Below, one piece after another: positions 2,960 to 48,210 of a stretch of DNA of 64,000 nt. This DNA is from Pomacea canaliculata (Eukaryota; Mollusca; Gastropoda; Architaenioglossa; Ampullariidae): contig NC_037591.1 in NCBI RefSeq assembly GCF_003073045.1, forward strand, positions 39,820,589-39,884,588, in the 5' to 3' direction. Made by a program: the position numbers and the translations under genes. The stretch's first letter is position 1. Every line of letters begins with the position of its first letter. The notes under the pieces were generated by a model. The model was not told where the DNA came from. It made no database searches and worked only from the letters and a program-made list of their open reading frames with translations.

Positions 2960-3690
2960 GACAAAGATAAAGAAATAAAAAATTAGAGCAGAAGTCAAAG
3001 CATGAACACTATGAGACATACAAATCCTATTAGAGTATATAATAATAATTAGCGCAAAATTTGTAAAGCGCTTATTCACACTCTTAAGGAGCATGCGTTT
3101 AGCGCCCAGCAATAAGAGCCAAATATGGACATCATACAAGGGACAGGAAAACAAACAAATAACATATGAACCATAAAACAGTAACCAACAGTACTAGCCA
3201 AAAATAAAATCAAATACAGAAAACACAAAGAGGAACCAAACAACAAGAACAAGAGCTGACAGTAACATGATATTGTAACAGGAAGGATGTGACAAAGGAC
3301 TAGCATTATGGGATAGGTTGTTAGGAGCAATGTTTACGGAAGAGGTGAGTTTTCAGCGCACGTTTAAAAGATTTATTATTGGGAAGGTGGCGGGTATGGA
3401 AAGGGAGAGAGTTCCATTGCTAACTGCACAATAACTAAACATCCTATGGTCATATGTTAATTGTTTTTTTTTGGTGACAGGAAGAGTAGGAATACGATCA
3501 TCAGAGGAGCGGAATGGTCTAGCTGGGATGTAAGGGAAGAGCAGTTCAGAGATATAGTCAGGGCAGGTGCCAGCAGAAAAATTAAAATACAGCACGGACA
3601 GTTTGTACTGGATGCCAGAACTGACGCAGTGACAAGACCACCATTTGTGAATTTGCGAACTGTAAAGATAGAACAGAATCCAGGATAGTC
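2960..3690 (-). mobile_element. 3' end of a CR1/L2-like LINE
   Basis: The minus strand reads through a typical C-terminus of LINE reverse transcriptase: GIQYKLSVLYFNFSAGTCP, PARPFRSSDDRI, and a worn form of the usual SFSYxAPxLWNSLP...LKTHLF end. A 3' tail with AAGCGC and a run of ATAATAATT follows near 3040-3075. It lies directly beside the I-like relic, so two unrelated LINEs abut here. It is 5'-truncated and broken. Confidence 0.5.
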
Positions 3691-3739
3691 AGAAAGAAGT
3701 TCCTAAAAGCGTTGAAGAAAAATGAGGTCGCTAGTGTCC

Positions 3740-24100: not shown

Positions 24101-24762
24101 CACTTATATATTGACAGTCATGACTAGTTAATCTCATACTTTCGCTGATGTCTCTCTTTAATCCACATAGTGCTTTATCGGGTAGTGTATGTATGTAGTT
24201 TGTATACATGTAGGCTTGAATGTATCTGTGTCTGTATTATTACACGAGAGAAATGACATCAAAAATAAATTGTTGGATTGTTGTTATTACTTTTATTACA
24301 TTTTTGCGAAACAGACTCTGATGGCTCTAAGACATTAAACATCATTTTGGTCGGCGTCATCGTTGCCTTGCTAGTAACTGTGGCCATCGCCACTCTCATC
24401 GTTTTTATAAAAAAACGGAAATGTAAGTAAACATCAGGAAATATTATTAACATAAAAGTAAATAAATAATGCACCAAAACAACAAAACAGATTGAAACAT
24501 TTAATACTCTGATTACACTTTAAGCATGACAAACATAACAGTTAAATCACACAAAGACAAATCATGTCATAAATTATCTCCAAGCTCACAGATTTGTGTC
24601 CCCCGATACACACGCGTGTTGCCGCCGGGTGACAACCCTGAGAAGAAATCACTCGGACATCGTCGGTCAGTTGTGTCGGCCACAGGTCAAAGGTTACACA
24701 CCGTCGCCCAAACTATCGATGTCGCTATGGCAACGCTCGAGGAAATGAAGAACATTTGCTGA
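9145..24762 (+). CDS. Receptor gene A: CUB / YWTD-propeller / TM protein lacking the EGF exon
   Basis: Hand-built exons: 9145-9211, 9408-9592, 12541-12694, 14147-14380, 15851-16019, 16354-16484, 16824-16983, 19685-19806, 23697-23762, 24315-24422, 24542-24762. They sum to 1617 nt, an open frame of 538 residues. Residues 1-22 are a signal peptide (MTLQLLVCLF start). Residues 23-135 are a CUB domain with its four cysteines (ACGG, EDCTY, DACEL, IFCNTS). Residues 136-407 are a six-blade YWTD propeller (VYWSN, LFYAD, VMYWSD, RLYWAD). A short stalk and a TM exon (NIILVGVIVALL, then KKRK) follow. All joins keep the phase seen in the paralogues. Unlike B, C and D it has no EGF exon; the 8-to-stalk join is phase 1 to 1, so the frame survives. 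The tail has only one tyrosine (RYTRVL). The acceptors of exons 3, 5 and 7 are weak, and the last exon start is the least certain. Ligand is unknown; a surface receptor role is inferred from the domains. Confidence 0.74.
10277..10865. mobile_element. MITE-like inverted-repeat element, gene A intron 2
   Basis: The ends are perfect 27-bp inverted repeats: 10277-10303, beginning TGTGACCCTCCACGACG, and its complement at 10839-10865. The 589-bp element has no transposase. Part of the interior (about 10375-10450) recurs in reverse orientation at 23455-23525 in intron 8, which shows the sequence is dispersed. I could not define a clear target-site duplication, so the superfamily is open. Confidence 0.6.
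12985..13178 (+). mobile_element. tRNA-derived SINE with poly(C) end, gene A intron 3
   Basis: The head has Pol III promoter boxes: an A box (TGGCGCAACGG, 12996-13006) and a B box (GGTTCAGGTCT, 13047-13057), spaced as in a tRNA gene. The body ends in GGCGTAAAACACTAATT and a run of about 12 C. It is nearly the same sequence as the copy inside gene B. The flanks carry only an approximate target repeat, so it is older than that copy. Confidence 0.75.
13180..13680 (-). mobile_element. LINE endonuclease fragment in gene A intron 3
   Basis: On the minus strand, around 13450-13300, two overlapping frames give an APE-type endonuclease piece: VDKTDLVAGDIL, then LDHDVDILFFSEAWVHDGDDP, the LDILFLTETW motif of CR1-like elements. 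It is a truncated relic with at least one frameshift, lying immediately next to the SINE at 12985-13178. There is no evidence of host coding function. Confidence 0.5.
14381..15850. other. Gene A intron 4
   Basis: AT-rich, no open frame of note. A TTCAAGATTCAAGATTCTTT motif near 14607-14626 resembles dispersed repeats of marine invertebrates, but I cannot assign it. Confidence 0.3.
17745..17900 (+). repeat. 44-bp minisatellite, gene A intron 7
   Basis: About three and a half copies of a 44-bp unit containing GACAGCACCGAGATATTACA and TTCTACCACAGTCACAAAGG. Unit starts are at 17791, 17835 and 17879. Copies differ by a few bases. The unit is not a multiple of three and the region is intronic. Confidence 0.85.
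18661..19592 (-). mobile_element. Foldback-type Mutator-like (MULE) element with subrepeat arms, gene A intron 7
   Basis: Each arm (18768-18890 and 19396-19499) is a tandem array of a 14-17 bp unit of the form CACTTAATCCCCAGA or CACTTCATCCCCGA. The two arms are inverted copies of each other. The outer ends match as ACAGAGCCAGCGC and its complement. Between the arms, the minus strand (about 19385-19040) reads as a MULE transposase piece across frames: VTDFEKAAMTAF, then GCYFRLSRAV, then DYEDDELRGMVRCLPALAYV. This is a non-autonomous, decayed element. No clear 8-9 bp target duplication was found. Confidence 0.62.
21181..22067. mobile_element. Possible solo LTR fossil, gene A intron 8
   Basis: An 887-bp segment begins TGTAACG and ends CGTTACA, an inverted TG...CA terminus. 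It is flanked by AGTTC and AATTC, a 5-bp near match. It is GC-richer than the surrounding intron, has CCAAT boxes (GATTGGTC), and has no coding region. This fits a lone LTR left by recombination, of unknown family, and old. A DNA-transposon remnant with the same termini is the alternative. Confidence 0.33.
22757..22855 (+). repeat. (GT)n-rich microsatellite, gene A intron 8
   Basis: TGTGTG runs are broken by TGCC, TCTC and TTTG. Open frames on both strands across it are repeat products. Confidence 0.85.
23208..23424 (-). mobile_element. tRNA-derived SINE (different subfamily), gene A intron 8
   Basis: On the minus strand there is a tRNA-like head (TAGTGTAGTGATTAAATC with CACTCGC), then a B box GGGTTCAGATCTCGTC, a body of about 150 bp, and a tail AATAAAGAAACCAACC near 23210. 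The family differs from the poly(C) SINE apart from the promoter boxes. There is no coding role. Confidence 0.6.
23455..23640 (-). repeat. Partial inverted copy of the MITE interior
   Basis: The segment with CTCAAAATGGCCGC, GTACTTTCACACTTCAAACG and CAACTCACTCAATTTTA is the complement of sequence at about 10385-10450, with few differences. The terminal repeats are not seen here, so it is a fragment. Confidence 0.5.
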
Positions 24763-24870
24763 TTATTTGTTTCATCCCAGTGAAAATTCTCCTTTGCAAA
24801 ATGAAGAATGGAAACATTCTCCTGTCTTTTGTGTACACAGACTTTTATTTCATCGTTACAAAGGTGAGAA

Positions 24871-24876
24871 AATAAA
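24871..24876 (+). terminator. Poly(A) signal AATAAA, gene A
   Basis: This is the first AATAAA after the gene A stop codon (24760-24762), about 110 bp downstream. That distance suits a short 3' UTR. Confidence 0.45.
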
Positions 24877-24879
24877 TTT

Positions 24880-27499
24880 GTTTAATATCAGTCCCATGGT
24901 TTGCAAAGCTTTCATCACATGTAGCATAAACATAAAAACTTGAAGGCCTGTATCTATTTCATAATTTGCATAATGTGCAGCAGATCTAAAATTTTAAGCA
25001 ACATGATTGCTTTCCTCTAGTTTTGTATTTGTATTTCCAATTTCTATCCAAATAATAATTATAACAACACCTTGTAATGCGCAACACCACGATCAAGATA
25101 GGTCGCACTCGCTGCGAGACCAGAAATGACAAAAGAACAGAAAGTGGACAGTGAGTTGTGTACAGACAGAAGGTAAAGCAATGGATGAAGATATGAAGGA
25201 CACAGTAAACAGCTGGAGCTGCACTTGATGGTTAACATGACAGACACTATTGTCAGGGAGTTATGGATAATTATTCAGGAAAGTACTTTGTGAACAGATA
25301 TGTTTTCATAGAGCAGGTGAATGTAGCCTTGTAGTCCGAGTGGCGATTATGATGTGAATAGAGGTCCACACGGAGGACGTCTGATGAGATGTCAGAGGTC
25401 AGAATCGTGTAAAGCTAACGCAAGATACACTTAATTAATATACGGTTCCAACCCTACTATTGGCCGTATGCACAAGGTAAACATGTGTATGTACAGTCCT
25501 GTTGTCTATATTATGGTTCTTTATCTAACCACCATGACGTCACTGAGCTTGTGTCTCGCGAGAGAAAATAACAGTTATTGCGATGTTTGTTTACAACAAG
25601 GACGCCGGCGCACAGACAGCAGCCAGTTACAATTTAACCTTCGTTTAGTTTATTGCTTGTGAGCTCAAAGCAAAATTCTATATTTGTTGTAAACAAAAAT
25701 ATACAGTAAAGATGTCTTGTATTGTTATGATCAGGTATTTGATTCCATTAATAATATTAACATATTAGTGTGTCACAGCCTTGCAAATTAAGTAGACTGA
25801 TGAAGGAGAATATCAACACAGGAGATCAGTCTGGTGTTGACTGGTAATTATGGGGTGAGTGACCTACGAGCCAAAGGATTTATTTATAGACTATACATTT
25901 ATTTTAGCCAAAGTGCTGTACCATAACGCTAGCCTGAGTGTAATATTTTTCTGGGACAGTTTTATATTTGTTATTGCATGTTGAGACTGCTACATAGAAA
26001 TTGCCCACCTTTCCTAAACCTTTATAAATGTATCTGTCAACAGTTTTGGCAAAACAATCAACTAAATCGTTTAATTATTGTCACATGAATAAGGTGATTA
26101 GTGGCACAGTGGGTGAAGGCACCTATCACCAAGATAATAAGAATCGGGAATCGCTGGTTTGTATCTCTTTCCCTTTTGGTTATTTAATTAATATTGTTAT
26201 TATTAAAACCAAATTAAACGTTTCGTGGTTTGAGTAAAATTAAACTTTGTAATAAAGTTTATAATAAAGAAAAAACATTAAATAGTTTCACACTAAAAAA
26301 ATATACCATAAAATCATTATTCAGTAAGTTGAGCCATGAACCAGTCAATCATTTATTTGTACAATCATTGTTCTTAACCACTTGTTCTAGGAGTCCCGCG
26401 TGCTCCTAGCTCTGAAACTGTAATTAAAAGGAAATGCCATCTTGATTGTGTCTTATTATTCGTATCTAAAGGTTATTTTATGAATGAGTCATAAGTGTAG
26501 TTTTTTTTTCAAAAGACTGAATTTTGTTCACTGTAAGATAAAACATAACAAAATATTTGCTGAAATGTGATAGAAAATTATTACAAGATACAATTTATGA
26601 TTTGTAAAAGACAATTTTCCTGTTTGCTAGAAGCAAGTCAATAAATAATAAAGACTTCAAGCCAGAAATAAGAAGACAGGTCCTGTCCAGTACCACGATA
26701 CTTTCATACAAGCTTCTTAGTCACTCCTTGAAGGACTTTCAAGTGCAGTTTGGGCGGTGGACTTTAAGCTCAAGTGTCCTCATCACATCATCAAGTATGT
26801 CTTCATGTTTAAGCCGTTCGCAAAGCATGCCAATGACTTTTGTGGGAAGTGTTTTTCTAGATGTTGTAAGCGTGTAGTTTGACATCAGAGGTTGCCTGAT
26901 TTATGATTGGGAGTAATTGTTTAGTGGGTTAAGGGTTTGCCATCAGCTCCCAAATTATCCGTTACCTTGACGATGTAGGAGTCGCCACCTACTACACTAA
27001 AGAAATTGCCAATGTCCGAAGACTTACTTTCGTGAATTGAGCGCTGCGGTTACAGATTTGAAGTATAATTACTTTGATATATATATATAAACTAGATACA
27101 TTTATAGGAGCGGTAGAAGAACGGTACATATATCAACAGCCAACATCAAACAGGAAGTGGTCATCCCTCAGCTTAGGGTGGGGTCACATGCATCCATTAT
27201 TCTTCAATGTCCTTAGAGGCCGCAGGCAGCTGACGAGAAGCACGTGTTTCTCCTATCATGCACTCGTGTATGTCCTATCTATCCGAAATGGAAGTTCCTC
27301 GCTTGTCCCTCAAGTCTTGAGTTATTTATATTCACGTGATATACCTTTATGCTGCTATGAATTTTTTTCATAAGTTTATTGAAATCTGAGATTGCCTTGT
27401 TGGACCGTATACGGCGCGTGGCCGGACGTTCCTCACCCCTCATCTACGATGACAGTTTCCTGTCAAAACTCGACCTTTCATCACGTGTACTGCTAGGGT
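24880..27499. other. A-B intergenic spacer
   Basis: No supported gene. Apart from the SINE fragment at 26090 and an isolated TGACGTCA near 25533, I see no clear structure. Confidence 0.4.
26090..26170 (+). mobile_element. SINE head fragment in the A-B spacer
   Basis: GATTAGTGGCACAGTGGGTG resembles an A-box region, followed by CACCTATCACCAAGATAATA and then CTGGTTTGTATCTC as a worn B box. This is the tRNA-like head only. Confidence 0.33.
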
Positions 27500-28200
27500 C
27501 AAGTGCTGCGAAAAACTTCCTGTTAACAGCAGCCATTAAGTTAATATGACAGTTTAAAAACTTGAAAGTAAAAGTCCTTCCGTATATCTTCATTTTCTGT
27601 CCTGTTTTTTCTCTCCTCCTTTATTTGTGAGTATACAATAATATACTATATATAGAAAGACACTATATATATATATCAAGCACACAAAAGTCTTCTGACG
27701 ATAAAAAAGACAACTAAAAGGCAGTTTTTGTACGTGTTTGTTTGTGTGTGTGGTTGTATATTTCATTGACATCAAAATATTAAGACACACATAAAGTAAC
27801 ATTAAGATTTCTAAGCAACTGTTGTATCAAGCATACACTTGGTAGAAGTAAAATTAAACATACAGACAACTTTTTTATTAGTTACTTAAAGTACAACGAA
27901 ATAATAAACTGTATTTTAGTTAAATTTTATTGTAGAGCCTGTGATTCATAAAAGCAGTTTTTTTTAATTTGACTTCTCAAGTTTAGTGCAGGGTGAAGGG
28001 TGTAAACAAATTCTTCCGGTAAACAGCAGCCCGTAAATGTTACAGTTTAAAAACTTCAAAGTAAGCGTTCCTTTTCTATTTCCTCATTTCTTTCCTGAAC
28101 AATTTGCTTCTGCTTTCATTTCCATGTGTGCATAAAAGTAAAATAAAAATAACGCATTAATTATTGAATGTATATCAATTGCCACATATAATCATTTCAG
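27500..28200 (+). promoter_or_regulatory. Duplicated 5' flank of gene B with two possible non-coding first exons
   Basis: Two diverged copies of one segment lie at about 27500-27620 and 28000-28110. Both contain an AACAGCAGCC core, then CAGTTTAAAAACTT, then a donor-like GTAAAA or GTAAGC (after 27567 and 28060), then a pyrimidine-rich TTTC/TCCTG stretch. The coding leader exon has an acceptor ending at 28200 (TCATTTCAG), so at least one upstream non-coding exon is needed. Either copy could supply it. Exact transcription starts cannot be read from sequence. Confidence 0.4.
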
Positions 28201-28205
28201 TGAGG

Positions 28206-28435
28206 ATGGAACTAGTGCCGACTATAGTATTCCTTGTATCAATCTGTGCAGTCGCTTCTCAGCAACGAGCCGAAGGTAAGAGAAATCTTGTAGGCACACA
28301 AGTGAATAAGAATGTTATACTATTCTTCTAAACGACATGAAAACATTATTCTAGCTTATCTCAGAATTTCAGTCGCTCGGTGTCCGGTGTAACGCTCTTT
28401 GTTTCTTTTTTATTTTAATAATAATAATAATAATA

Positions 28436-28532
<97 letters not shown>

Positions 28533-31500
28533 TGTACTGTGAAGTGTGCACACATCGTTGTCTTTTAGTATTATGTCTGTTTAATAAATATTTTTAAACC
28601 TCATTATCATTCGATTTTTTAATTGATGTATCTTATATAAGGAAAGATAATATTTTGTGTCTTATTGCACTATCATTACATAACTACTATATGCTTGAGT
28701 TTATTGAAGTGTCTGACCTCATTACGCTTTTATCATACACAGATCTGTTGTTTGGTTGTTTTACCTTTACATTTAAAAAGATCACCTGTTCGTGATTTGC
28801 TTAGTTTTCTATAGTCAGTGTGATTCTGCCTATTTAGTGGTAAGGTATTTTATACAGAGTGAGTAATATATGTATCTTTCCTAAATATTGTCGTTTAGTA
28901 TGTATTTCTTCAAAGTGAATACAATTCTAGAAGCTTATTGTATGTTTTTAAAAGGGAATGTTTCTTCTACAGTAGTACTGAGGGTGAAGAGTTTGTAGAC
29001 CATAACGCGTATTTGTTTCTCTCTAGATTGTGGAGGCAATTTCACACAGCCTTCTGGTTCCATTTCGTCGCGTGAGCGGCCCAGTGGCGCAACGGTTAGC
29101 GCCTGTCACCAATACAGTGAAGGTTGGCTGCCCAGAGTTCATTTCTCGTCTCGGGCACGCAGTTCTTTCTCTGCACGTGGCATCTGTTTACAGGGCTGGC
29201 TGCTTGCCGTAATATAGCCTTAGTTGCTGACACGGCGTAAAACACCAATGCCCCCCCCCCCCTCCATTTCGTCGCCATTGTACCCAAGAAGCTACCCCAA
29301 CCATCAAGACTGCATCTACGTCATCCAAGCCGTTGAAGGGCACCGCGTGACTTTGCAGTTTGTCGTTTTTAAACTGGAGCCAGGCTCCACCCCCAGTGTC
29401 TGTGACCACGACTACGCGCAGGTGACTGTCACGCGCATGTGAGATGACACCTGAGACACCGCAAGCTTCTCCTCTCTTCTGTCTCCTTTCTAAGGTTTAG
29501 TGGTACAACGAATGAACACTGGTACAACAAATATTAAATGTCTTGTGTTCAAATCTCATCTTGGCCACATTGTTTTCTCATTCTCTATTTGTAGCTGTTG
29601 TTTGTGATATCACCTTAGTTTCTGAGTAGAGGACCACTATAATCACCGCCTTCCCCTTCTCGATTTTCCCTCTTATTTTGAATGTTTATCAGTAAAACTA
29701 CATTGATAAGTGAATAATAGAATCAGGTAATATTTTCATCTGTTCAATTAAACAAGATTCGGGATGGCGATTCTGTGGTGTCGCCCTCTGTCGGCATTTA
29801 CTGCAACTCAACGTTTCGTCCCAAAGTGAGGTCAACGAGAAATGTCTTGTGGATCAAATTTCATTCCGACTTTTCAGTGTCCAAACCTGGCTTCGAGGCG
29901 ACCTACACTACAGGTGAGACATAGAGTGCAAGTAAGGCTTTGAGCAAAAGTCTCTAATCTTGCAAAGACCTTGATACCACTTGTATTACAGTGTTTTGGA
30001 TAGAATGTGGCGATAACAAGATAACATATTTCGATAATAAAATGTGAATAGCAAATTAGTGATAGTTATCCAAAGAGTCTCTTTTATTTAGTTCAGCACT
30101 TTGAGCATCACTTGTCTTCATTGGAAAGAGATGGAGATGGTAGGAATTTGGATAAAAATAATAGCAAGGCTCCATCAGTAAGATCGCTGTAGAGAGTCTG
30201 ATTTTTATATTCAGGAATCATTCCCCAGAAGTTTCTCCTGACGACCAACACGTATCTCCATGCCATTCACCGCATGGACGTGGACACCGGAAGTAACTTC
30301 GTCATCCCAATAGACGGCCTGTCAAACCCTATTGCCGTTGACTACGACCCAGTGGATGGTCGATTATACTGGACGGACCTCGTTGAAAAGACGATTCGTT
30401 CCGCAAACCTCGATGGCAGTGGCGTGCGTCTCGTCCGGAATCTCGGCCCTCGTGAGTTCCTTGTGAAGTAGCTATGCTATGTTCCAATGGAGTTCCAATG
30501 TAATGGTTCCAAGTCCTTTTGTGACCCCTGTGTGAACGTCCTAGTTATGGCTAATCTGTAAATAAGTTTTAACTATTTTAATTCCCTCTTTCTCTGTCTT
30601 TCCCTCTTAAAAGAAACTTGTGTACAGTTTTAGGAGAAGCTTATGTAAAACATAAACCTTGAGTGGACAGAGAAAGCAATCATACTTTCTGTTGTACAGA
30701 AGCAGTGCCGGATGGACTTGCAGTAGACTCTCTCTCACGGCTAATCGTCTACACTGACACAGGAAATGACGTCATAGCCCTGATAGCCATGAACAGCTAC
30801 AACCACAGAGTTGTCGTCCAGTCCGACCTCGACGAACCCAGGGCCATAGAACTGGATAAACACAGTGGGTGTGTTGATTGCTGATATCTCGAACATTAAA
30901 AGAAGAAAGACGACAGTCAGTCTCAGGTCATTTCCTCTCCCGGAGTCCAGCAGGATCCCGAGCACGAGCACAAATAAAACCCTGGACAAAAAATAACTCT
31001 GGAAAAATCTAACAATCATTGAATTTTAAATATAGGATACTACTAATCAAATATTCCCCAATTTAAAATTTACATTCATGTGACAAAAAAATCAATTTGC
31101 TTCTTATTGCTAAATAAAAATAAATGTTCTCACAAATTCTGCAGTAGAACTGACAAAACTATCATGGCTGTAACCAAACCAAGCTAAAGTCATACGAGAT
31201 TACGCTGATGATGCTAATGAAAATTTTTCATTGTCGATTTAATTACAGAAGTTCACTAGTAAAGTGCAAGGTCTAGTTAAGTGTTGGGAGGTCTCAGTTC
31301 TTGGACATATCAAGCTCACTCTGTATAGTTCTGTGCTCATCGTGCTAAAGGCAAACAACAAAATATATTGAGTCAGAACTGAACACCTGTAGAGAATGAA
31401 ATGAAGATGCATGTAAACTCTGTAACTCTGCCGCCATGACAAGGAGTTAATTTATTTGTCAAGAAAGAGTGATGTACTGGAGCGACTGGGGCGCCACCCC

Positions 31501-34170
31501 TAGAATAGAGCGAGCCAACTATGACGGCACTGGACGCAAGACTCTGGTGTCAGGGTTCCAGTACCTGCACTGGCCAAACGGTCTGGCTCTGGACACAGTC
31601 GGTGAGTCTCACTCTTCTCTTCCATTCTCAAACCAGTACTCTAGGTTTCATTTGGTTATACTAATATAATGATCTCTTTGTATGAGGTAGAAGTCCATTT
31701 TCCTTCGATTATGTTTACCGTTGAATTGTCACCCCTGTTTGAAGGGAAAAAGGGAAAACAGGTACAAATTATATATGATTTTCCTTTGCAGTTCTTTGAC
31801 ATAAAAATTAACAGGTCCAAGTGTCTGGAAGCATATTGTTTCAACAACAAAAAAATAGCTTCATCAGCTAAAACTGTAGAATAATTTTTCTCTGTGCACG
31901 TATCCTCAGGTTTCTTTATAGTCATTCATAACGATATATGTGGTGTTTGTGTGTGTGTGTAGCCGGCAGAGTCTACTGGGCAGATGGATATACAAGTAAA
32001 ATTGGATGGACGGACTTGGAGGGCACAGTTGTCTCCATAGTGATCTTCCTTTCAGGCACACATAGAATGTTTGGTCTTGACCTTCATCTCAATAACCTCT
32101 TTGTTACAGACTGGAGTGACACAAGGTAAAGCTTTTACTGATGAGAATATTTGCCCATTGTTAATGACAAGGATTCCTTTACGATTCCGGCTTCTTTACC
32201 CTATTTGAAGCAGAGGTAAATAAAAGATGTCACAGTCGTAACACACATAAACAAAGGTGTGAAGCGAATTAAATTTTGTTAAAACATGAAGTCACTGAGG
32301 CTTATCGAGGTGTGATCAGTCTTATTTACAATGTCTTAGTGAATGAAGATTTTCATTAACGGTGTCACAGTGTCCAGCCTACTACCACCTACATCCACCG
32401 CATGAGTGCTGACGGGACTAACAGGAAAACTATTGGAGTTGTGAATGGACGATTAAACGACATACACATCTACTCGGAAGAATTAGAGGATAACGGTCAG
32501 TGAGTTCTGTTTATTCAAATCAAACTACTCTCCTACCGCTCGATTCTTGGTGGTATTATTTTTTATTTGTGCATTTCTTGGGGTTGTATGACAATAGTTA
32601 TTTGTAAGATGGTAGCATTGTTTCCATTTACTGTTATTCAGATGGGATAATGTAAAGAAGTTTTTGAAAAGCTTCAAATTTTAGTACTTACCTAGATTGA
32701 ACGAGTTAACATCGTGGAAGCTTGGAATTGCGAAATTAAAATCCAAATTCCTTGCGCTTGATACATACCTTTTATCTTTTCTGTCTTCGTAACAAGTAAT
32801 ACAATGTTTGTTCTTCTGTAGTGAGTGTCTCTTTAGAATTTTATTCCTGGAGTTTATGCTTTACAAATGTCAGATCCAAATGGTTGCGGCAACAATAATG
32901 GTGGTTGCGACTACATCTGTGTACCTGCACCCGGCAACACCAGTCAGTGTTTGTACCCGGATGGTATTGCCACCGGACACATCATCACCAGCGTCCCCAC
33001 GGGCTCTAAGACAACCACCCGTAATGACATCAGAATGACCAGGCCTGTCATCAGTGTCACACCTGCTGGTCGGAAAGTCACAGCTGGCAGTCAAAGATTT
33101 GCAGCTGCTGTCAACAAAGTCTTAGCTGCCATAAGTAAAGGTCCATCTGACATCAACACACGTACACCCAGCATCTCCAGAGTAAAAACTGTGGTCACCA
33201 ATTTCAGCAGGGACACAAGTACAATCCACGGTAGGTGTTTTGAAGACTTACCTTTAGTAGAAGAACGATGACCAGATATTTATAACTTGGATGCCAAATA
33301 TCTATGGTTACCGGACATTTTTAGGTGATCACTGACCTATACTCAAGATAACAGAGGTCGTCTTCTTTTAAGTTTCAGAGGCTCCCATCATCAGTCCTCA
33401 ACTTATCATATTTGTCATCGGCTGTATTATCGTCAGCGTTACAGCTGCATCATGCGTCACTTTCATCATCGTCTATAAAAGACGAAAACGTAAGAAACAG
33501 ATAGATATTACTAATAAATGTATACGCTGGTTGTTTTAACGGATGTGTATATTTTTATATGGTTGTAATGTGTGTTTGTACCTGATTATATGTATGAGTG
33601 TATGGCCCTAGTGAGACTTTCCATAGCAAACCACTCAGCTTATAGTTTCTAAGTGTAGCTGCATGCAGGAACACACCAAATTCTTCCAATTAAAAAAAAT
33701 GTAATGTACCTGATGCTTACAGGACATTGTCTAACTTGCTGTGTATAGGTGATCAGAATAGCCATACGACTGCTGTGACCTCGGCACCGGAGGTTGACCG
33801 TCCAAGTCACATAGAAGCGCCACCTATAGACATATTCTCCACAGACTACCTGACTCCAGTCGCTGCTGACTCGAACTACGAAGATGAGGAGCATATCTAC
33901 CACGAGCTACACACCATTTATGACACTTTTAAGGCCACGTGTATGTATTTTTTTCTTGTTTTTGTATATTGTATTATTTTTTATTCAGTCTCCATAATGC
34001 AAGAACACAAATCCGCATTTCAATTGCTCGATCAGTGCAGTCAAAGAATATCATGTATCCATACAGCAATCACATTTTACAATTACAAGGAAGCTAAGGA
34101 GTCAAAACTCGAGTATGTTTTGTATTTTACAGCCCGCGACAGTGGAGACTACCTGAAGCTTACGAAGTGA
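28206..34170 (+). CDS. Receptor gene B: CUB / YWTD-propeller / EGF / TM with tyrosine tail; CUB exon interrupted by a SINE
   Basis: Exons: 28206-28275, 29027-29421, 29757-29913, 30215-30451, 30700-30868, 31468-31601, 31963-32125, 32371-32495, 32874-33230, 33379-33489, 33749-33940, 34133-34170. Without the 204-bp insertion in exon 2 the sum is 1944 nt (647 residues). Order: signal peptide ([16 protein letters not shown]), CUB to about residue 139, propeller to about 415 (RLYWTD, LIVYTD, VMYWSD, RVYWAD), an EGF motif with four cysteines ([12 protein letters not shown]) fused in one long exon to an 85-residue Ser/Thr-rich stalk, a TM segment ([13 protein letters not shown], then KRRK), and a tail with YLTP, YEDE, YHEL, YDTF and YLKL. 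The SINE keeps the length a multiple of three but brings an in-frame TAG in its 3' part, so this allele should end inside CUB. All other exons are open, so the loss looks recent or polymorphic. The exon 6 acceptor is weak. Confidence 0.8.
28416..28532 (+). repeat. (AAT)n-(ATT)n palindromic microsatellite, gene B intron 1
   Basis: About seven ATA/TAA units turn directly into about thirty ATT/TTA units. The two halves are complementary, so the tract could fold on itself. Confidence 0.9.
29072..29262 (+). mobile_element. Young SINE inserted in the CUB exon of gene B
   Basis: A 191-bp SINE of the same family lies between perfect 13-bp direct repeats TCCATTTCGTCGC (29059-29071 and 29263-29275). 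It has an A box (29085-29095), a weaker B box near 29134-29147, and a 12-base C tract at its 3' end. It splits the conserved CUB stretch SISSPLYP. Insert plus duplication is 204 bp, a multiple of three, but an in-frame TAG follows CTTGCCGTAATA in the SINE. Confidence 0.88.
29490..29670 (+). mobile_element. Diverged SINE in gene B intron 2
   Basis: An A-box-like TTAGTGGTACAACGAATG and a B-box-like GTGTTCAAATCTCATCT are followed by a CCACATTGTTTTCTCATTCTC body resembling the 12985 SINE. It is old and heavily mutated. Confidence 0.4.
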
Positions 34171-34248
34171 CAACAGATGTTGCACGTGCCCAAGACTGCG
34201 CCGGACTAGCTGCTCTTCGATGTTTCTCTTTTTGTAAAGCAGCCGACA

Positions 34249-34254
34249 AATAAA
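34249..34254 (+). terminator. Poly(A) signal AATAAA, gene B
   Basis: This AATAAA lies about 80 bp after the gene B stop codon (34168-34170) and is followed by TG/T-rich sequence, as expected for a cleavage region. Confidence 0.55.
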
Positions 34255-34259
34255 AATGT

Positions 34260-35908
34260 GCTAAATATTTCATTATCCATTGAACTATTTTCTTCCTTTT
34301 TTGCGTAGAGTTAATAACATTATTGAGAGTAATAGTCTTTATTTTGACTGTTAATCTTCATGCTACGTTTGGCCATGATGAAGGAAACGTTTGTCTTTTC
34401 TTGTCATTGCACATTGTCATCCAAGAAAAAACTGCACATGGATAAATAAAGTCAAAGCACATTGTTTTCCTTTTTGTTATTGTACATTCTGCAACTATAA
34501 AGCGACTCACGAACCAAGATTTTCCTGTTTCTGTGTCTGGAAGTCCGATACAGGGGAGAGTACTTGAATGCACAGGATCGAAAGAAGGTGTCTGTATTTA
34601 TATTCTGTTGCATCAAACTGAAGGCCAGCTTTCATGGTCCACTGCTTCTTCATCTCATGTGTGATACATCAACATGTGGTAGTTGTTTCATTGTTGTCTA
34701 AATTATTTTCTTATCACATGGTGCGTCTTGCCACTGACATTATCATATGATGATCCAAAACATTTTTTTTGGTTGATATTCTTCATACTACTTAGATATT
34801 ACCTCTCAAAGCGATTATGTATTAAAACTAAAATATTTGATGACTTGTGTGATAAACAATATGCAGTTTAAAAAATAAATGTTATTGACTTTTATGCTTT
34901 GTTATGATTGTTTGTTGTTATAAGTGGGCAAACCAACAAGAGATTGTACAGCTTGTTAAATGAAAAGCTGTTTTGTTTCAGCTCTCATTTTAACGCATTA
35001 AACTTTCATTTAAATTTTATTAAAATAAAACGAAATGCATCAGACTTACAAAATCATTCTAAAAATGAACTTGAATTTGTTTGTTTTCTGTTTATGTATA
35101 GTTGAACGTATTTGTGTGTTTTTCTTTTTAGTAAAGCGCTTTGAGTCCGTCTTTCCTTTGATGGGAAAAGCGTTACACAATTACATCATCACAGCAATCA
35201 TCATTCAACAAGTGCTGAGGGTGGCTTGAGTGACTTTTAACCTTCGTTGATCATTGGAGTTCGATGTGTATTGGAGATAATTTATCATTGCAATGTGACT
35301 GTAGGATGTACTGTGTGTATCCGTGGGCCACTGATTGTAGTTTATGCTGTATGTGGAGCTTCTGAGGCTGATCACAAGATGTAAGATGCAGTGAGGAAGG
35401 TATTCACTCGTTTAGTTCTTATTCACTCTCCAGGATGTTGGCAAAGTCACATCGACTTCGATCTTGCCGCACCTCATCAAGCAACATGCACGTGAATGGA
35501 CTGAATTTTTTTTTATAAAGCATTGCGAGTCATCTGCCCTATCCCTATTAGAAAACACGGCCACAGTTAAAACCTCTCGCCTTTTGTCAATGTTTGATGT
35601 GCGCCCCACACTTCACTCCGTGCTTGTTCAACATAAGAGCTTGCTAAGGGAGAGCACTTCCTGGTCTATTCTAAACACACCGAGTTCGTTCCTCCTAATC
35701 ATCAGTGCATCTGTCATTCGATTTCCACCTGGACTGTGCACTCAAATGGGAAATATACTACGAGTCACACTGAGTAATTTAACAGGTAAGTCATTTTACT
35801 CAAATTGTGTTCACACGCCACAGACTCCATTAAAAATTTAAATTCAGATTTTGTTTGTTGAGATGCCATAGCAACATTTAAATGTCAATGTTTTGGTTTT
35901 CATTTCAG
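34260..35908. other. B-C intergenic spacer and gene C 5' region
   Basis: A LINE-tail-like GTAAAGCGCTTTGAGT with AAAAGCGTTACACAATTA lies at about 35130-35185. A donor-like AACAG|GTAAGT at 35785 could end a 5' exon of gene C, because the coding leader exon has an acceptor ending at 35908. No separate gene is supported. Confidence 0.35.
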
Positions 35909-35916
35909 CAAACCAG

Positions 35917-38900
35917 ATGATTACTCTTCTTATTTTGTGTTTCTTTACATTTGCAATTCATCGGCAAGTGCAAGGTAATCACTAGTGAATCAACATTCTA
36001 AGAGTGGTTTAAAATTATATATTAACAAACGTTTATGTCTGTATATTTAAATGTATCTGTGTTTAAATATCGACATGTCTGTGCTATTGTCAACAAAAGC
36101 TTTGCAAACACACATAGACATATGGGTGAAATTACTCATAAACACAAGCGTACGTGGTAAGCTCTGATACATATAAATATATGTTGCATGATTAGTTTAA
36201 AATGTTTGTTTTAAATTCTTTGTTTTAAATCCTTTAATTATTATTTCATTTAAGTTACTATATGATTGCTTGTTTAAGGACAGCTTAGTCTAAAATCTGT
36301 TTCCTAGCTTGTGGCGGTGAATACACTTCACTCACTGGTCTCCTATCGTCTCCATTGTACCCGAGTCAGTACCCGCCTGACCAGGATTGTGTTTACATCA
36401 TCAGAGCACCACCAGGATATCGGATCACCTTGACATTTCTCCGTTTTGAACTCGCAGATGAAACGGATAACTGTCAGCACGACTATCTACAGGTATAAGT
36501 AACATTGAAGGTACAAAGAGTTAAAATTTCTAATTTGCTTAATGTAACATGAATGCATTCTGCAATATGTTGAGAGTGATTACAAAGTGTTTGGTTTCCT
36601 CTCACTTTCTGACACATTAACTTCTGGGTTAAGACTGTTCTCAAACAGACAAATGAACAAACAGGTTTGATATTATTAGAATCCTTAAAGAAAACTTTTG
36701 GATGGGCTTAATATCATTTCCTTCTAATTAAGTAAAGGTTAATACCAAATACTTTTTAATCCAAGTCCAAATCAGTTTGCATCCTCTGTTCTTGACACAT
36801 GCACCTACAAATATCGATATGCAAAAACTTGTTAAAATCGTGTGTTTACACAGACTAACTAACATTTGTTTATCACATTATTGCCGTAAGAGCTGAGGAC
36901 TTTACAGCAGAAACTAGTTACCATCATGGTCTCTGTGGCCGCTTGATCTGCTTAGTGAAAAGTGTAAACATGTATCTCGAGAACAGATGAACAGCATTCA
37001 ACTGATTTGCCCTGAAAATTACCTACAATTTCACTTAATAAAATTAAAGGTTGGCAAGGTAGAAGTGAATGCTTTGACGATCCTTCATCTCTTCGTTTGA
37101 AGATTAGAGATGCGGGTCAGGGACATCACCATTCTTGTCTATCTACTGCACACCACAGCCTACACAGACGATCATCATCAAACACATGTGGATCAGATTC
37201 CGTTCTGACTCATCTCAGTCCGCAGCTGGCTTCCATGCGAGCTACACTGCAGGTGGGAAAATACATCTGATAAAGTTATAATAAAAACCTAAGGAAACTA
37301 TTACCAACATGTTTCTACTTTAAGGAATATACAATGTCAATATCTACTTAAGTAATGCAAAATTATTACACGGATAAGAACATTGTACCAAATAGCATTT
37401 AAACATTTCAAAATGATTAGAAATGGTCTAGAATCCTCCATAAATATTTATAATGTTTAAATACTATCAAGGGTATTTCTTTGTCTATATTGGTCTAAAT
37501 CAACAGTAATGAATAAACAATAATAAATGTTAAAAAAGTAACCATACTTATTCTCTAAACTGTATCAGGAACAATGTGCCATATAATATATATAAAATAA
37601 GAGAGTACAACAGTTGTTATCAAAATATATTTATATTTGTAGTGAGCCAATAGTTTTCTTCATTCTAGGTTTGTTGGTAAATAAATTAATTTAGTTACTG
37701 TGAGTATATGTGATTTGATGTTTGTTTTTGTTTGTATATATGAGCGTGTGTGTTTTGTTAAAGTTTATGGACAGATGGCAATAACTTTCTGATCAATGCA
37801 GACCTGTTCCTATTTTCCTCAAAATACACTTGCAAACTCAATCAAGCTGTAATCATCCTACGTCAAGGGTATTGTATGTTTTCTCTATTTTTATTTTGAT
37901 GTTGATATTTTACTTAAACAAAATTTAAACCAACTCCGATTGTTTGGATTGTCTGCAGCCATAATCCCCCAAAAGTTTCTCCTTATTACCGCATCTGTGC
38001 TATCGGGGTATGTGGGTATTAACAACATAGACATCGACACATATAGCACTGTTGACATTCCGCTCATTGGAGTACAAGACCCTGCTGCTGTTGACTACAA
38101 CCCAATGAATGGTCGCTTCTACTGGACAGACAATGGGGAGAAGACCATCCGATCAGCTAATCTTGACGGCAGTGATGCTCGGCTTGTTCGCTATTTAGGA
38201 TTGGGTAAAGTCTTTCATTTAAAAACACTATTGCATAATATATATATAATTATATACCGAGCATGATTTGTCTTTAACTCATAATAATAATAACTTCTTT
38301 TAACTAACTTCTTTTTTGTAAAAGCGAATACAAGCAACTAGCTGGATGTGTATAAAAGAGAACTGAATCGACCAATGCCAATCGAGGATGCAATCTATAT
38401 TTTTCTCTTTGTCCTGCCTTAGTTTTCTTATGGTGGAATATAATTATCTACAGGTCGTAGCTCAGTAGTTATTCTGGCTCCAATAGATTGGTACGGGGAA
38501 AACAATTTACATGATATAGCCTGTTTTCTTTGAATTCTCAAGAACTTAAATTTGCTTTACAGACTGTTTAGACTCTCATCACAGCTAACTGTAACTACTG
38601 TATTCCCTTTTTAAATATTTCTAAAAACAAGAAGATTAAATGCAAAATAAAATTCGAAATAAGGTTTATACTTATTCGGTTGTTTGATAATAAAAATACA
38701 GTTATGATTTCCAGCCTCTGTACCAGACGGCCTGTGTGTAGACGCACTGTCCAGGCTCATCTTCTACACAGACGCAGGCAATAAAGTCATCGGCATGATC
38801 ACCATGTACAGCAACACTCATCGAATAGTCATCAACTCCTCACTTGACATGCCGAAAGACATCGAGGTTGACAAACGCAATGGGTAAATATATTTAATTT

Positions 38901-41900
38901 AACAATAGGCTAATTAATTCAACATTGGAGAAATCAAATTACTCAGAAAAACAAGAAATAAATTGCTGATCACGTTAAAGTGCTGAAACAAATGAGATGA
39001 AAATATAGACACATTAGTTTTGTCCCAGATATCCAGTTTATAAAAAGTACTAGAAAAAGTACCCAGTGAACAGGATTGAAGAGTCAACGCACTCTCCTAG
39101 CAGAATTTAAAGGATGCAAAAACCATTTGTAAATGATTCAGTTGAAAAGGGGACATAATGCTGCGACGCCGACCACTGCCCTCTCTTCTCTCCATTTTCA
39201 TTCTCTCTCACCGTCTCATGAAGTGCCTACTGATTGAAGAGACGATTTAAGCTAGCTTTAGGATAGGATACTCAACTGTGGATCACATGTTTACCTTGAT
39301 GGGTTTGATTCAGAAACAATTCTCTCTTAATAGTAAACTATATGTGGCATTTATAGACTTTGAAAACGTTCTCTATTCAATAAATAGAAACTTATTTTGG
39401 CCCATTTTGTCAAAAATGGGTTTCCATGCAAGTACTTTAGATCCATTAAAGTCATGTAAAATAATGTAAAAAGAAAGAATTATATGTGGAGCACAGCTAA
39501 CTGATTATATAAAATGCACTAAGGTGGTAAAGCAATGGGATGTGTGTAGTCCTGTATTACTCTCTTTTTAATCAATGAATTGGCAATTGAGATAATTTAG
39601 AATGTAAAACATGGAGCCTCCCTTTCTATAGATTACTGTAAATGATAACCAAATTAGGGTAATGTACTGGACCGACCGTGGCGCCACACCTACCATAGAG
39701 CGAGCCAACTATGACGGTACAGGACGTCAGACTCTGGTCTCAGGGGGCGAGTATCTCAAACAACGAACGCCATCGCTCTCGACACAGTCGGTGAGAATTT
39801 TTCTTATCAATCTATCCTTCCTTTTTTTCTTTTCCTGTCTTATTTGTTTTCTGTGTTATTACCCTATATGAAACATTTAAAATAATTATATTCTATGAGC
39901 TCTTCCGTTTATATATATATATATGTTTTTACAGACAAACAGTTTTTGCTATAGTTTTTCTATTTTGGTGTGTGTGTGGTCTCCCTGTTGTGGATGTACA
40001 CATGCAGAAGGCAGACTGTACTGGACAGATGGTGGCACGCAGAAGGTAGGCTGGGTTGACCTGGAAGGGAGGAAGACTTCAGTGATTCTACAACAACCAG
40101 GATCAGTCTTTCACGGCATGGACCTCTATCTCAATGACTTCTTTGTGACGGACTGGAGGTTGGTAGTGCTATCATTTAATTTCTTTATTTCTATTGCATA
40201 TAGAATATGTCAAATATGTTTCTTCAGCTGACTTTATGGCGGGAATATGATTATTATTACCAAAATTCAAATTTATTTACCCTAAATATTTACTGTCGTG
40301 TTCTGAGCGTGCAGAACTAAGCCAGTCGTGCTCATTTTAAAGGATAAAAAACAAACTTTTTCAGTTTTCTAAATCGCAATCAGACGATAAAAACACATCT
40401 TTATCGCTATGGCAAGGACGGCGGCAACAGAAGGGAAGTTGCGAACTCTCGCTCAAGATTAAATGATATCCGTGTCTACGCTGAGGAAGTCGAAGATAAA
40501 GGTCAGTGAGCAGACATGGTAGTCATAAGTATAGACAGCAATATTTTACCTGGAAACACCATCCACAGGCAAACGATCTCTTTCCGTCCTCAAGAATTCA
40601 TGCCCGCGAATAAAATATTAACCGATATTTTTGAAAATTTATTTCTATTAAAGCTACAATACAGACAACTGTTTGTGGTACTCTGTTTTAAGGAGCTTTT
40701 TGAAAAGAATTACTTGGTGTGAATTATGAGGAATAAAGGTTTTGTTTTATTATAGTAAAATCAAATGAAAGGTTGTGGTGTATGGGACAGAATTCACAAG
40801 TTGTGATGTAGATCAAAAGCTAGAAAGTAACAAAAATTATTGACACAATATATGACACACAAAGTGTTGAACAAACATATATTTTATTAGAATATACATC
40901 AGAATTTGAATATTACTTCCTGGGTTTTTTTTTTCATGTTTAGTTGTTTGAATACAAATGGATGTTGAATTGAGTAACCGGCAACCGACCTCAACAAGAC
41001 GCTTAAGCAACTGAATCTTCCCCAACTCTCAAACATAGCGAAATACCTGACAGGTTGAGCTTCATTAAATTTAAGCTGCTAAGGGGAAGTAATCGATAGT
41101 CAAACTATTTTTAAAGGATTCAGTAGTTTCCTCCCTTATATATTTATTTACGCACAGAGCGATTATGATGCGACCGCTACTTGTGGGCGGATGGGAATCC
41201 CGGTTACTATTCGGTGAGAATGAGACTTGTAGTGATATCAGAGTTCTGCTACTTCCAGACCTCTAAGTACCGATGTCAACCCCAAAACTTATCTTTAAGG
41301 GGACGGCAGCGAACAGCCCAGTATGTCTACACTTCATAGTTTAAATCTTTATTTCAGGGCCGAACGGATGTGGAAGCAACAACGGTGGTTGTAGTTACAT
41401 CTGTGTACCCACACCTGGCAACAGAAGTAAATGTCTCACTGAGGACGGAGGATCTAGTAGGTAACCTGTTAATGGCTTGAAAATAGTTACAAGCAAAATT
41501 ACCTATCAGAAAAAGTTGTAATCTCAGTTTAGATAAATTACATATCTATAATAATAACACATAAAACATCAAAATTTCCTGTTGAAAACTATTCTTCTGC
41601 TGAATATAACTCGTAGAATACAAACGATAGCTTAATTAAATTTTCCTCTCGATACCAAAGGCAAAATAAAAAAGAACGTTATTTTTTAATGATAAAAATG
41701 GAAGAAACAATCATCTTAACTACATGATGCTACTTCTTCAAATATTCATCATGTGTGTATACACACTTGTCAGAAGTCTTAAGGGAAACATTTAGATGTT
41801 CAAGACACTCCATGTGTTGTCGTCTGCCGCGGCAAGAAAAAAAACTAGAAAGGCAAGAAAATATGCATTTGTAAGATAACCCGAAGCCTAAAAGCTCGAT

Positions 41901-44900
41901 AGCAAAAATAATTTGTTGTCGAAAGTAAGGACGATGACACTTCGTTACAAAAGAAAATTAAGATGTTATCAGTATCTCTTGGCAACATTTTAAGTTAATG
42001 GGCTACCTTCCATCAGCAATTTTCCAACATTACATTGTATTACGAAAAGTAATAATGTAAGTGCAACTTGCAGAGTAGCTTCTTGCAGTAAAGCTCCAGG
42101 GTCTTTATCATGCTTAGTCATAAGTATTAAGAAAAGTTGCGAGCTGCAGTAGTCTGTCATTAGGTCCGAAACAAAGACAAAGAGCACTTCACATGTGAGA
42201 ATTTCTACTACGTAAGGATCTACAATAATAAATACCCATGTAGCTATTGCAAAATAACTGCTTTTAATACAGGAATATCTACTTGCAGACGTAGCAAAAC
42301 TCATTTTAAAAAATTAGCCCTTAACTGCGATATTTATTTTTTTATTGTTTTTCCTCGAACTACAGCAAAAAGTGAAAGTCCAACGACTGGCAGCTCAACA
42401 AAAGCACGTGATCTGGTCACACCGAGCTCTACAAGGGATCCCAACATACCAGCAGGTAACACTGAACTGATGTTGTATTGCATAATTTATCTCTTGCAAC
42501 ATAACAAAAGGTCTATGCTAAGAAGTCTGCGGTTTATGTCTGTACGTACACCCGTAAAAATACACTGGTGGATAATTGATTATGGTGTTTGAAAAAGCAA
42601 GTGCATGGCTTTTAAATGGATAATTAAGTGCTTTCTTTTATTATGGTGCATGGTAATAAAGGGCACTTTTCAAATACCAGTACCAATATATTTCCATCTA
42701 TCTCTATTAGCAATTCTACCTCTAGTATCTAGGATTGTCACCCCCATCTTGCGGCATCCTTACCAGCACCTACAAGAATCTATTTTTTTCCTACAAGGTA
42801 GCCGTTTACACTATGGATGTGAATGCTGTGAGTTTTAAACACCTAGTTGTCATAGATTAATATTCGATACGCCTTCTACAACACATATACAGAATATTTG
42901 AAGGCTTTCTTAAGGAACTTGATTCAAATCACAAACTCAAAAAAACTTCCCAACCTTTCCAATAACTTAAATGACCCCATCACAACTCTCTAGCTCGCAA
43001 ACAAGAAGATTGCAACACTGGTCAGTACATATGGTGTAACGATTATCAACCAGGACCAAGCAAATTATATTAAAGGAAAGAGACCTATCGCTACATTCTG
43101 TTCTTTTTATTAAAATATCGACAAGAAAGGAAGAATAAAGCAAAAACTGAAAGCAAAAATTCGAAGTAGCAGGGCACTTCTTTAAAGTCTACCATTACTT
43201 GTCGTAAAAGAAAGTAAGATAGAGAGAGAGCTACAGGAGGGACGGGGAGAGAGACAAAGCATAGCATGTGCAACAGTTTGCTAATCTTCTCTTAGAAAGA
43301 TTGCAACATTGTGTCATCCAATTCCTTTTTCTGTTTTTCAGAATCAGAGTCTGTGAGCACTAACACCAAGATCATCATTGCTGTCTGTGTTGTGGCGGCT
43401 GTAGTAGGAATTGCTGTCATCATCACACTCTTCATTTTCTTCAAAAAAAGACGTAAGACGCATGACACCAGCTCGGGTGATGCATGTCTCCCCGTCCTTT
43501 ATGTCTGTACATTTGTAGTCATTGTCATAGCAAATGTACATTTTGTAGTCATTGTCTCAGTTCTTCTGCAACCAAAAATGTACAAAGATGCCTGTGCTCA
43601 TTTAATGTCCATAGACTTGTGCTTTAATTTGCCTTGACTTTTAATGACATTTACAAAAAACCAAAAAGTGTTAAAAATTATCTTAATGCAACTTTATTAT
43701 AAATAATTTTTTTGCTCAAATGGGTGACAGAAGAAGAATAATAGTGAATGTGTCTGTCCACAAAGAGATGACCTAGGAACATATATTCTTTCGGATGATA
43801 GGATGTGCAGGTGGAAGCAATCGCAAAGAACTCGTGGCTTCCACGCAGAGACACAACACACGTGAAGTCCCCCTGGGGTCACTGACAGCAACATCAAATA
43901 ATATTTCAGGTGTTAATGCTCAGCACAATGACCACAGCTATCAATCCGGTTATAGAGAGGGCAACTCTAGTGACGCAGGTAGGTACACTAACCATGCTTT
44001 TTGTTCAAGTATAACTGGTCTAAGTATAATTGGTTTACACAATAATAGTTGTCTTCTCCTTCTGCCATACAAATATTTGGGAGCAAAACTTGTTATTAAG
44101 TATATCTTGTCTGGTCGGGAGGGGTGAGGACAAGAATTGTTCATACATTAGCCAAACCCTGGTTTGGTTTCGTTGCGACGATAACGACTCTAAGGAGAAT
44201 GGAGAACTGGTAGCTGATCATCCCTTTCAAACTGAAGTCTCTTACCATGTCAGTCTTGTCATCTTATTACCTGAGTGTTTAAAAATAATAATAGTAATAA
44301 TATGTTGATTTGTAAAATCTTTTCCCCACCGTTAAAGACAGGATCAAAGTGCTTTAGTAAAACAAAAACACACAAACATTGTAACACTGGATATCTGTCT
44401 CAAAAACAGTTAAAAAATTGCTGAAAATTAGCCGAATTCTTGTAGTATGATAATCAGGTTAGTTTAGCAATAACTAAGAATTATCCAGAATTGCTTCACC
44501 CACACACCCAGTGCTCCGTGGACAATGTTTTTGCGTTTGAACTCGCTCGAGGGAACATTTTACAACGGTTTTAGCCTTGTACAGCCTTGGCATTGTAGGA
44601 CTTGACCTTTTCGTGCCCCATGATGTAGTGCTTAAAGTTGTTAAAGACTTACACAGAATACCTTGTCGCTTGATTACCCCATGTTAATTTTGTCATCAAA
44701 ATCGTTTTGCTGTACAGAGTAGGTTGTGTCGACATAGATTATCAATAAATAAATGATTGGGATCCTACATGCTTGCAATCTCGGGCGATGTTTTGTGCAG
44801 GTGAGACAAACTGCGAACAACCTGCGATAATCACACCAAAAAAGCTCTATCCTTACATCACAATGGATAGACAACCAGCTACACAGACAGGTGAATACTC

Positions 44901-47290: not shown

Positions 47291-47664
47291 TTTTATCTTC
47301 CATTGACTTTAAATAACTTGCAGCTTAAACGGGTGTTTTCATAAAACATCGAGAAAAATCTTTCAGATAAGCGTGGATATATATGAGGTGCATTCTCCCA
47401 GCTGTTCAGCATCTTTGATAATTTTATGCAAGAATCTTCCCTAACCCTAAAAATGTGTTTCCCCTCTTGATCAGGGATGATTCCATATGTAATTTGTTGT
47501 TTGAAATAAACTGTTTTTGAAAAATTCTGAACATCCATTAAATTTGTAATTTAAATTTCATTGCCATAGAGAGAGCCAAGGTCATCTTATCTGTTTATAT
47601 AGATCACCAACAAACACCACAGAACTCATTTTCTTGTCTGTTTTTCCGGACTCACAAATGTAAC

Positions 47665-47930
47665 ATTTCACACCACTTCTTCACTCTCTTCACTGGCTAT
47701 GAGTTAAAGCAACAATAGACTACAAGCTCTTGACTCTATGCTATGAATTCTTTGAAGGCTCCTCTCCCTACTTCTTTACTTGTCTGTCCACACTCCTGTC
47801 CCAAAACCTTGGCTTCTCATCAGACTCCAGCATTCTATCCTCCCTCCCATAGACAGTCACATACGGACAACGGAGGTCCTCCCTCTGTGCTACTAAGCAG
47901 GGGAACTCTCTTCCATTGTCTCGTGCACCA
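47665..47930 (+). mobile_element. CR1/L2-like LINE RT C-terminal fragment upstream of gene D
   Basis: Across shifting frames the + strand reads as the LINE thumb/C-terminal segment: a worn LHWLPV motif, DYKLLTLCYEFFEGSSPY, a SSDSSIL block, then TYGQRRSS and GNSLPL. It is the same kind of element as the fragment near 3.0-3.7 kb. It ends about 15 bp before the CRE-like cluster. Confidence 0.45.
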
Positions 47931-47945
47931 ATGGCGTCTTGTGTC

Positions 47946-48210
47946 TGACGTCTTGTTTACGTCATTGGTTCCACGTCATTTGAAGCAGAAAATGACGTCA
48001 TATACAAGTCAAAAGAAGCTGCTCGAAAAATAGCCGAGTGAGCGGCAAAACACGACGGCCTTCTCCGCCATCTTGTTTATGACTCTCTCAGTGACATTCC
48101 TCTCAACTTGTGCCTCTTCCATTTGATTCGCCTACTAATCTCTGTTCTCATCGTCATCCGCCGGGGCTCGTCGAGCGTTGTGTTGTGTGTGTATATATAT
48201 AATACGTCAC
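47946..48210 (+). promoter_or_regulatory. Cluster of CRE/ATF-like sites upstream of gene D
   Basis: Four CRE or half-CRE motifs lie in 55 bp: TGACGTC at 47946, TACGTCA at 47958, CACGTCA at 47972, and a full palindromic TGACGTCA at 47993. A fifth, TACGTCAC at 48203, follows a TATATATAA run. CREB/ATF or bZIP binding is the usual reading of such sites. A donor-like GTAAGT follows at 48222, so 48215-48221 could end a 5' exon spliced to 49455. Function is inferred. Confidence 0.42.

Follow-up and report, generated by a model that had tools for sequence, protein, structure and literature searches.

The closest described counterparts of the locus reported here are the SINEs that have landed in genes, among them Alu, B1/B2, and the canine SINEs, and the inactivated copies of tandem gene families. 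Target-primed reverse transcription is the established route by which SINEs insert. The canine merle allele is reportedly an example of a SINE landing in a gene. Pseudogene formation in tandem families that evolve by birth and death is a general class of event. For the proteins involved, the nearest known counterparts are the LDL-receptor-related proteins LRP2, LRP4, and LRP6. The propeller of gene D, one of the genes described below, matched the PDB chains of these three receptors at 1.2e-169, 1e-138, and 1.6e-74, respectively.

The window analyzed here is a 64,000-nucleotide stretch of contig C2 (NC_037591.1) of the apple snail Pomacea canaliculata, and the genome searched was a 24-contig assembly of 440,159,624 bp. 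The window contains four tandem gene copies (A, B, C, and D). Read base by base, the first CUB exon of gene B carries a 191-bp SINE flanked by perfect 13-bp direct repeats. We consider it probable that this SINE marks a young loss-of-function allele in a birth-and-death cluster, buffered by related genes and possibly still segregating. The features of gene B and of the insert are listed in Table 1.

Table 1. Features of gene B and of the interrupting SINE (window coordinates; a slash marks a splice junction).
Feature	Position	Strand	Basis or remark
Predicted signal-peptide exon, phase 1 donor	28206..28275	+	167-bp stretch around exon 97.0% identical in B'
Interrupted exon for the first half of the CUB domain; 191 bp if the insertion is subtracted	29027..29421	+	acceptor TCTCTCTAG, donor CAG/GTGACT
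Target-site duplication, left copy, TCCATTTCGTCGC	29059..29071	+	sequence; two alignment blocks overlap at empty site in B'
tRNA-Arg-like SINE, 191 bp, sense to gene B	29072..29262	+	sequence, genome copies, alignment
GTGAGC, weak donor-like site at 5' junction	29072..29077	+	PWM 5.4
First in-frame stop TAG, within SINE	29215..29217	+
Second in-frame stop TAG, within SINE	29221..29223	+
12-C tail of SINE	29251-29262	+
Target-site duplication, right copy of TCCATTTCGTCGC	29263..29275	+	sequence, alignment
CUB domain second-half exon	29757..29913	+	gene model
YWTD-propeller exon	30215..30451	+	gene model
YWTD-propeller exon	30700..30868	+	gene model
YWTD-propeller exon (exon 5)	31468..31601	+	gene model; 133/133 aligned bases identical to a paralogue
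YWTD-propeller exon	31963..32125	+	gene model
YWTD-propeller exon	32371..32495	+	gene model
EGF-like and Thr/Ser-rich exon	32874..33230	+	gene model
Predicted transmembrane exon	33379..33489	+	bounds judged by eye from alignment

A first-pass annotation of the window had described a 191-bp SINE between perfect 13-bp repeats, and its coordinates hold base for base. It had also placed the insertion in a coding CUB exon with a gain of 204 bp. This is upheld by the sequence, by the empty site in the sister gene B', and by the Pfam CUB match of the sister protein (E 3e-29), which in addition matches Ldl_recept_b (LDL-receptor class B repeats, E 8e-24). The gain of 204 bp corresponds to 68 codons. 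The in-frame TAG that had been reported is present, with the exception that there are two such codons and not one. If the insert is left unspliced, translation from the predicted start of gene B would stop after 86 residues. With the insert set aside, all eight modelled exons of gene B are open and bordered by GT-AG. The earlier statement that the other exons are open is accurate for the seven other modelled exons, and the predicted signal and transmembrane exons are open as well. A tail exon follows the transmembrane exon. The original observation is real and was well described. What it missed were the SINE-free sister, the large gene family, the second stop, and the more distant in-frame acceptors.

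A protein search with gene B located an unbroken exon at C2:40009752-40009946, on the opposite strand and approximately 160 kb away, that is 91% identical to the CUB exon of B along the full length of the latter. This exon belongs to B', whose sequence runs uninterrupted through the target and constitutes an exact empty site. Window positions 26124-29071 align to positions 1569-4497 of the duplicate, and window positions 29263-30192 align to positions 4485-5415. In the sister, these blocks share 13 bp, which is the target duplication. Because the break in the alignment falls exactly at the insert and comes with this 13-bp overlap, the insertion is not a chance resemblance. Because B' holds the exact empty site, the insertion is real and younger than the duplication that separated B from B'.

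The duplication is inverted and at least 18 kb long. It spans window positions 25030-43234 and holds genes B and C on one side and B' and C' on the other. Alignment of window 25.0-43.2 kb with C2 39996000-40014400 (minus strand) gave blocks of 88.8-95.3% identity with several breaks, and the blocks over gene B are 92.6-94.3% identical to the B' copy. The left end is real: the alignment ends at window position 25030, while the fetched copy extends 479 bases further, and window 24300-24900 has 21 matches besides itself, none of them at the expected position (40.0141-40.0147 Mb). The right end at window 43.2 kb is the limit of the fetched stretch. It is not sharply defined, since window 45900-46400 matches the inverted copy at the expected place with 76% identity over about half its length. 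Window 47600-48200, also used as a probe for the right end, is a common repeat and was uninformative. Among the 106 listed matches, none lies near 39.989 Mb, where a counterpart of gene D would be expected.

The same comparison bears on whether the insertion is an assembly artefact, or whether B and B' are diverged alleles wrongly placed apart. We regard either possibility as very remote. In its favor, the assembly report describes PacBio reads, Pilon correction, and removal of alternative haplotype contigs (PMC6129957), and the adjoining gene C has single-base deletions of the kind typical of uncorrected long-read errors. The similarity that persists on the right side points the same way. In addition, a population study prints a median nucleotide diversity of 0.00427 to 0.0580 (PMC11417965). 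Unless it is a misprint, the upper value would overlap the divergence of B and B', and divergence by itself would then leave the two possible as alleles. Against an artefact, an assembly error cannot create a SINE with a perfect 13-bp target duplication. Against alleles, the noncoding divergence of 4.85% exceeds the heterozygosity of 1-2% given for the sequenced genome in the assembly report (PMC6129957), and the copy is inverted and distant on the same contig. The left alignment end, the missing match to window 24300-24900, and the lack of a gene D counterpart argue against alleles as well. From these alignments, B and B' are read as an inverted segmental duplication, and the allelic interpretation is disfavored.

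The insert can be assigned to a multicopy family. A search of the snail's own genome gave 2371 candidate places, and the 40 that were scored match at 96-100% on many contigs. Thirty copies (L001-L030) were extracted from these 40. In 29 of the 30, an exact repeat at least 8 bp long flanks the element, and in all 30 a run of 6-17 C precedes the target repeat. To our knowledge, a C-run tail is unusual for a SINE, and a search of the open-licence literature found no paper on a poly-C-tailed SINE. No description of this SINE was found in the open-licence literature on Pomacea, gastropod tRNA-derived SINEs, MetaSINE, coding-exon insertions, or resequencing and insertion polymorphism.

The head of the SINE is identical at 24 of 32 positions to a 32-mer present at eight places in the genome. 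We take this 32-mer to be the 5' part of tRNA-Arg and the eight places to be candidate tRNA loci. None of 2000 base shuffles reached 24 of 32. Among 30 fetched tRNA loci, the best matches to the head were L057 and L064, both called tRNA-Arg(TCT) by ARAGORN; in this comparison, minus-strand tRNAs were compared unturned and were thus at a disadvantage, and the ARAGORN calls cover 22 of the 30 loci. The Rfam tRNA model gave no match to the insert at E up to 10, and a 4-kb stretch screened with E up to 1 gave none either; ARAGORN reported no tRNA genes in the window. The head has thus diverged from a foldable tRNA, and the tRNA relation rests on pairwise similarity because the Rfam model gives no match. 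Recognition by that model is not a strict requirement for SINEs. With a tRNA-related head, dispersed copies, and target duplications, the element has the properties of a tRNA-derived SINE.

Window 12984-13178, between two gene A exons, holds an older member of this family that is 86.7% identical to the SINE in B. A possible old, decayed SINE fragment lies at window 29494-29604, in the intron immediately after the interrupted exon; its translated similarity is weak (42% over 36 residues).

Between B and B', 339 of 6992 noncoding sites differ (4.85%), and 57 indel events separate the two. The coding sequence has 52 differences and no indels in 1533 bp, where approximately 12.5 indels are predicted from the noncoding rate. 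The overall dN/dS ratio between B and B' is 0.255, and it falls to 0.16 if the Thr/Ser-rich stretch is left out. Differences were assigned to branches using two further paralogues as outgroups. This covered 42 of the 52 differences, of which 8 could not be assigned; 10 others, in the Thr/Ser-rich stretch, were left out. The B branch has 7 nonsynonymous (N) and 9 synonymous (S) changes, fewer N than the approximately 77% expected if neutral (p 0.005). The B' branch has 5N/13S and is also constrained compared with neutral (p 1.6e-5). The two branches do not differ significantly in N/S (Fisher p 0.48). Changes that could be assigned within the CUB exon amount to 4N/2S for B and 0N/3S for B' (p 0.17). 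Relaxed constraint on B after the insertion was not demonstrated, as these counts give it no significant support. The absence of coding indels and a dN/dS of 0.26, in spite of the noncoding divergence, indicate that B was under constraint for most of its history.

The age of the insertion was estimated from the SINE itself. The copy in B has one private change in 171 aligned bases when 29 copies are compared (one of the 30 was dropped because its end motif is missing). The copies compared were selected from a large family by likeness to the copy in B and are the members most similar to it. The nearest, L002, lies on another chromosome and has one difference in 171 positions. If the private change was already in the parent copy, the insertion would be younger still. 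The point estimate of the age is 0.006 changes per site, with a 95% interval of 0.00015-0.033. It is roughly one fourth of 0.025, the per-branch age of the duplication that separated B from B', and is close to the depth that a species with 1-2% heterozygosity would show; the upper limit of the interval exceeds the age of the duplication. The probability of observing at most one change is 0.07 at the age of the duplication and 0.49-0.79 at the depth of 1-2% heterozygosity. The age of the SINE is compatible with polymorphism at that level of heterozygosity.

The upper limit of this age is what an alternative can draw on in which B is a settled pseudogene carrying an old, fixed insertion. That reading appears unlikely. 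The modelled exons of B carry no other lesion and no coding indel relative to B'. Only 7 of the 16 changes assigned to the B branch are nonsynonymous, well under the neutral share, and the SINE has a single private change. The recency proposed by the first-pass annotation is favored by that one change in 171 bp, the SINE-free sister copy, and the constrained reading frame. That the insertion is recent and perhaps polymorphic is offered as our best guess and not as a result.

The splicing options around the insert were scored with a matrix whose donor and acceptor sets each consist of 30 sites in genes A-D, a small sample of related genes (one gene A exon bound was adjusted and one gene A exon was omitted). 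The junction site CGC/GTGAGC had been noted earlier as donor-like. It is, but it is weak: its score is close to the lowest among real donors (5.2-10.8), and 29 of the 30 score higher. It looks accidental because its first bases vary among SINE copies. It had also been stated that none of the AGs tested near the 3' end restores the frame. This is correct for the two nearest AGs past the C tail, which would start the exon at 29289 or 29292. Acceptors 29330, 29339, and 29384, however, are in frame with the junction donor, as is 29309 by phase. All four would likewise keep the frame if joined to a phase-1 donor, for example that of the signal exon.

These in-frame partners leave room for an interpretation in which splicing removes the SINE as a new intron, or alternative sites bypass it, giving an altered in-frame protein and a partly functional B. 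It is helped by the junction donor falling within the real range and by two further pairs. The top in-frame pair among the best 15 joins donor 29123 (AAG/GTTGGC, 6.3) to acceptor 29330 (5.3) and retains some SINE-coded residues. The pair 29095/29224, inside the SINE, keeps the whole CUB domain plus SINE-coded residues. The sites themselves speak against it. Acceptors 29309, 29339, and 29384 score 0.5, 2.3, and 3.0, below all 30 real acceptors (minimum 4.0), and 29224 scores -0.3. Use of 29330 removes at least 18 CUB residues, including a conserved cysteine, and the nearest AGs shift the frame. Skipping the CUB exon shifts the frame as well, since the exon measures 191 bp uninterrupted and 395 bp with the insert. 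On paper, in-frame splices that avoid the stops do exist, mostly at poor sites and with an altered CUB domain. Judged from these scores, rescue by splicing is unlikely.

A more specific version can also be formulated. The SINE would be a segregating splice-switching allele, with the junction donor and the C-tailed 3' end yielding a CUB-shortened or truncated secreted receptor. We think this most improbable. If true, a large receptor cluster with a possible role in recognition would gain diversity both in gene presence/absence and in isoforms.

The preferred reading, a young loss-of-function SINE allele, would proceed as follows. A SINE RNA was presumably copied into the site by the reverse transcriptase of a LINE. 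The unspliced insert would be translated as the signal peptide, 15 CUB residues, and then SINE-coded residues. The mRNA would probably be removed by nonsense-mediated decay, because many introns follow the stop. The resulting allele would be a loss of function buffered by B' and the many paralogues. The features of such an allele are present at the locus: the frame is interrupted, the modelled exons carry no other lesion, and the sister is intact. The SINE may be carried by one allele only, because the assembly collapsed haplotypes (PMC6129957).

The cluster that would provide this buffer is large. Matches to the first propeller exon number 73 (B and B' included) on C2 between 39.52 and 41.39 Mb, among 150 scored of 529 candidates. 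They define a 1.9-Mb stretch of one chromosome, including window genes A-D, that holds a CUB/YWTD-propeller/EGF/TM receptor-like family. Among the matches listed, those elsewhere are few and weaker. Loss of B is probably buffered because so many related matches lie on one stretch. Of the CUB-exon matches scored on C2, 40 of 41 cross the SINE site unbroken, and only B is split. No description of this cluster as a CUB-domain or LRP expansion in apple snails was found in the open-licence literature.

In exon 5 of B, 133 of 133 aligned bases agree with a paralogue at 39.958 Mb, while the adjoining exons are 76-82% identical. Window 31466-31616, which covers exon 5 and a few intron bases, is 99.3% identical to L052 3436-3586. 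Exon 5 is likely a short local gene-conversion tract produced by homogenization. Gene conversion could also erase or spread the SINE. Exon 3 of B, 94% identical to a paralogue, may be another conversion tract.

Gene C was considered as a second dead gene and rejected. It contains frameshifts in the second and fifth modelled exons (window 37103-37252 and 39658-39790), both with single-base deletions relative to sister C' and gene D. These deletions are probably best explained as uncorrected long-read errors.

The insertion in B seems to be a clear, though ordinary, instance of a mobile element breaking a spare gene copy. Its value is that a clean, datable SINE insertion sits in a coding exon under constraint, and that the same chromosome offers a natural empty site at a distance of approximately 160 kb. 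The insertion would be an easy marker of gene loss in a large receptor cluster. It can be typed at once because resequencing of 173 snails is public (PMC11417965). The cluster itself, with 73 propeller-exon matches over 1.9 Mb, is the broader lead.

Compared with the systems introduced above, the locus resembles Alu, B1/B2, and canine SINE insertions in that a short non-coding retroposon with target duplications disrupts a gene and can be dated by divergence from a sister copy. It differs in its tail, which is poly-C and not A-rich, and in its position, which is in sense orientation in the middle of a coding exon. It differs also in its host gene, which has a SINE-free near-duplicate and many paralogues. 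Since B has this duplicate and many further relatives, a knock-out would be much less consequential. As in birth-and-death pseudogenes, one copy of a large cluster is probably inactivated while its sister is intact. Unlike that class in general, the inactivation is by a SINE, and the exact empty site is preserved in an inverted duplicate. With LRP2, LRP4, and LRP6, the snail genes share a YWTD propeller and an EGF-like module. Unlike these receptors, they have one propeller behind a single N-terminal CUB domain, a single transmembrane segment, and a lineage-expanded cluster.
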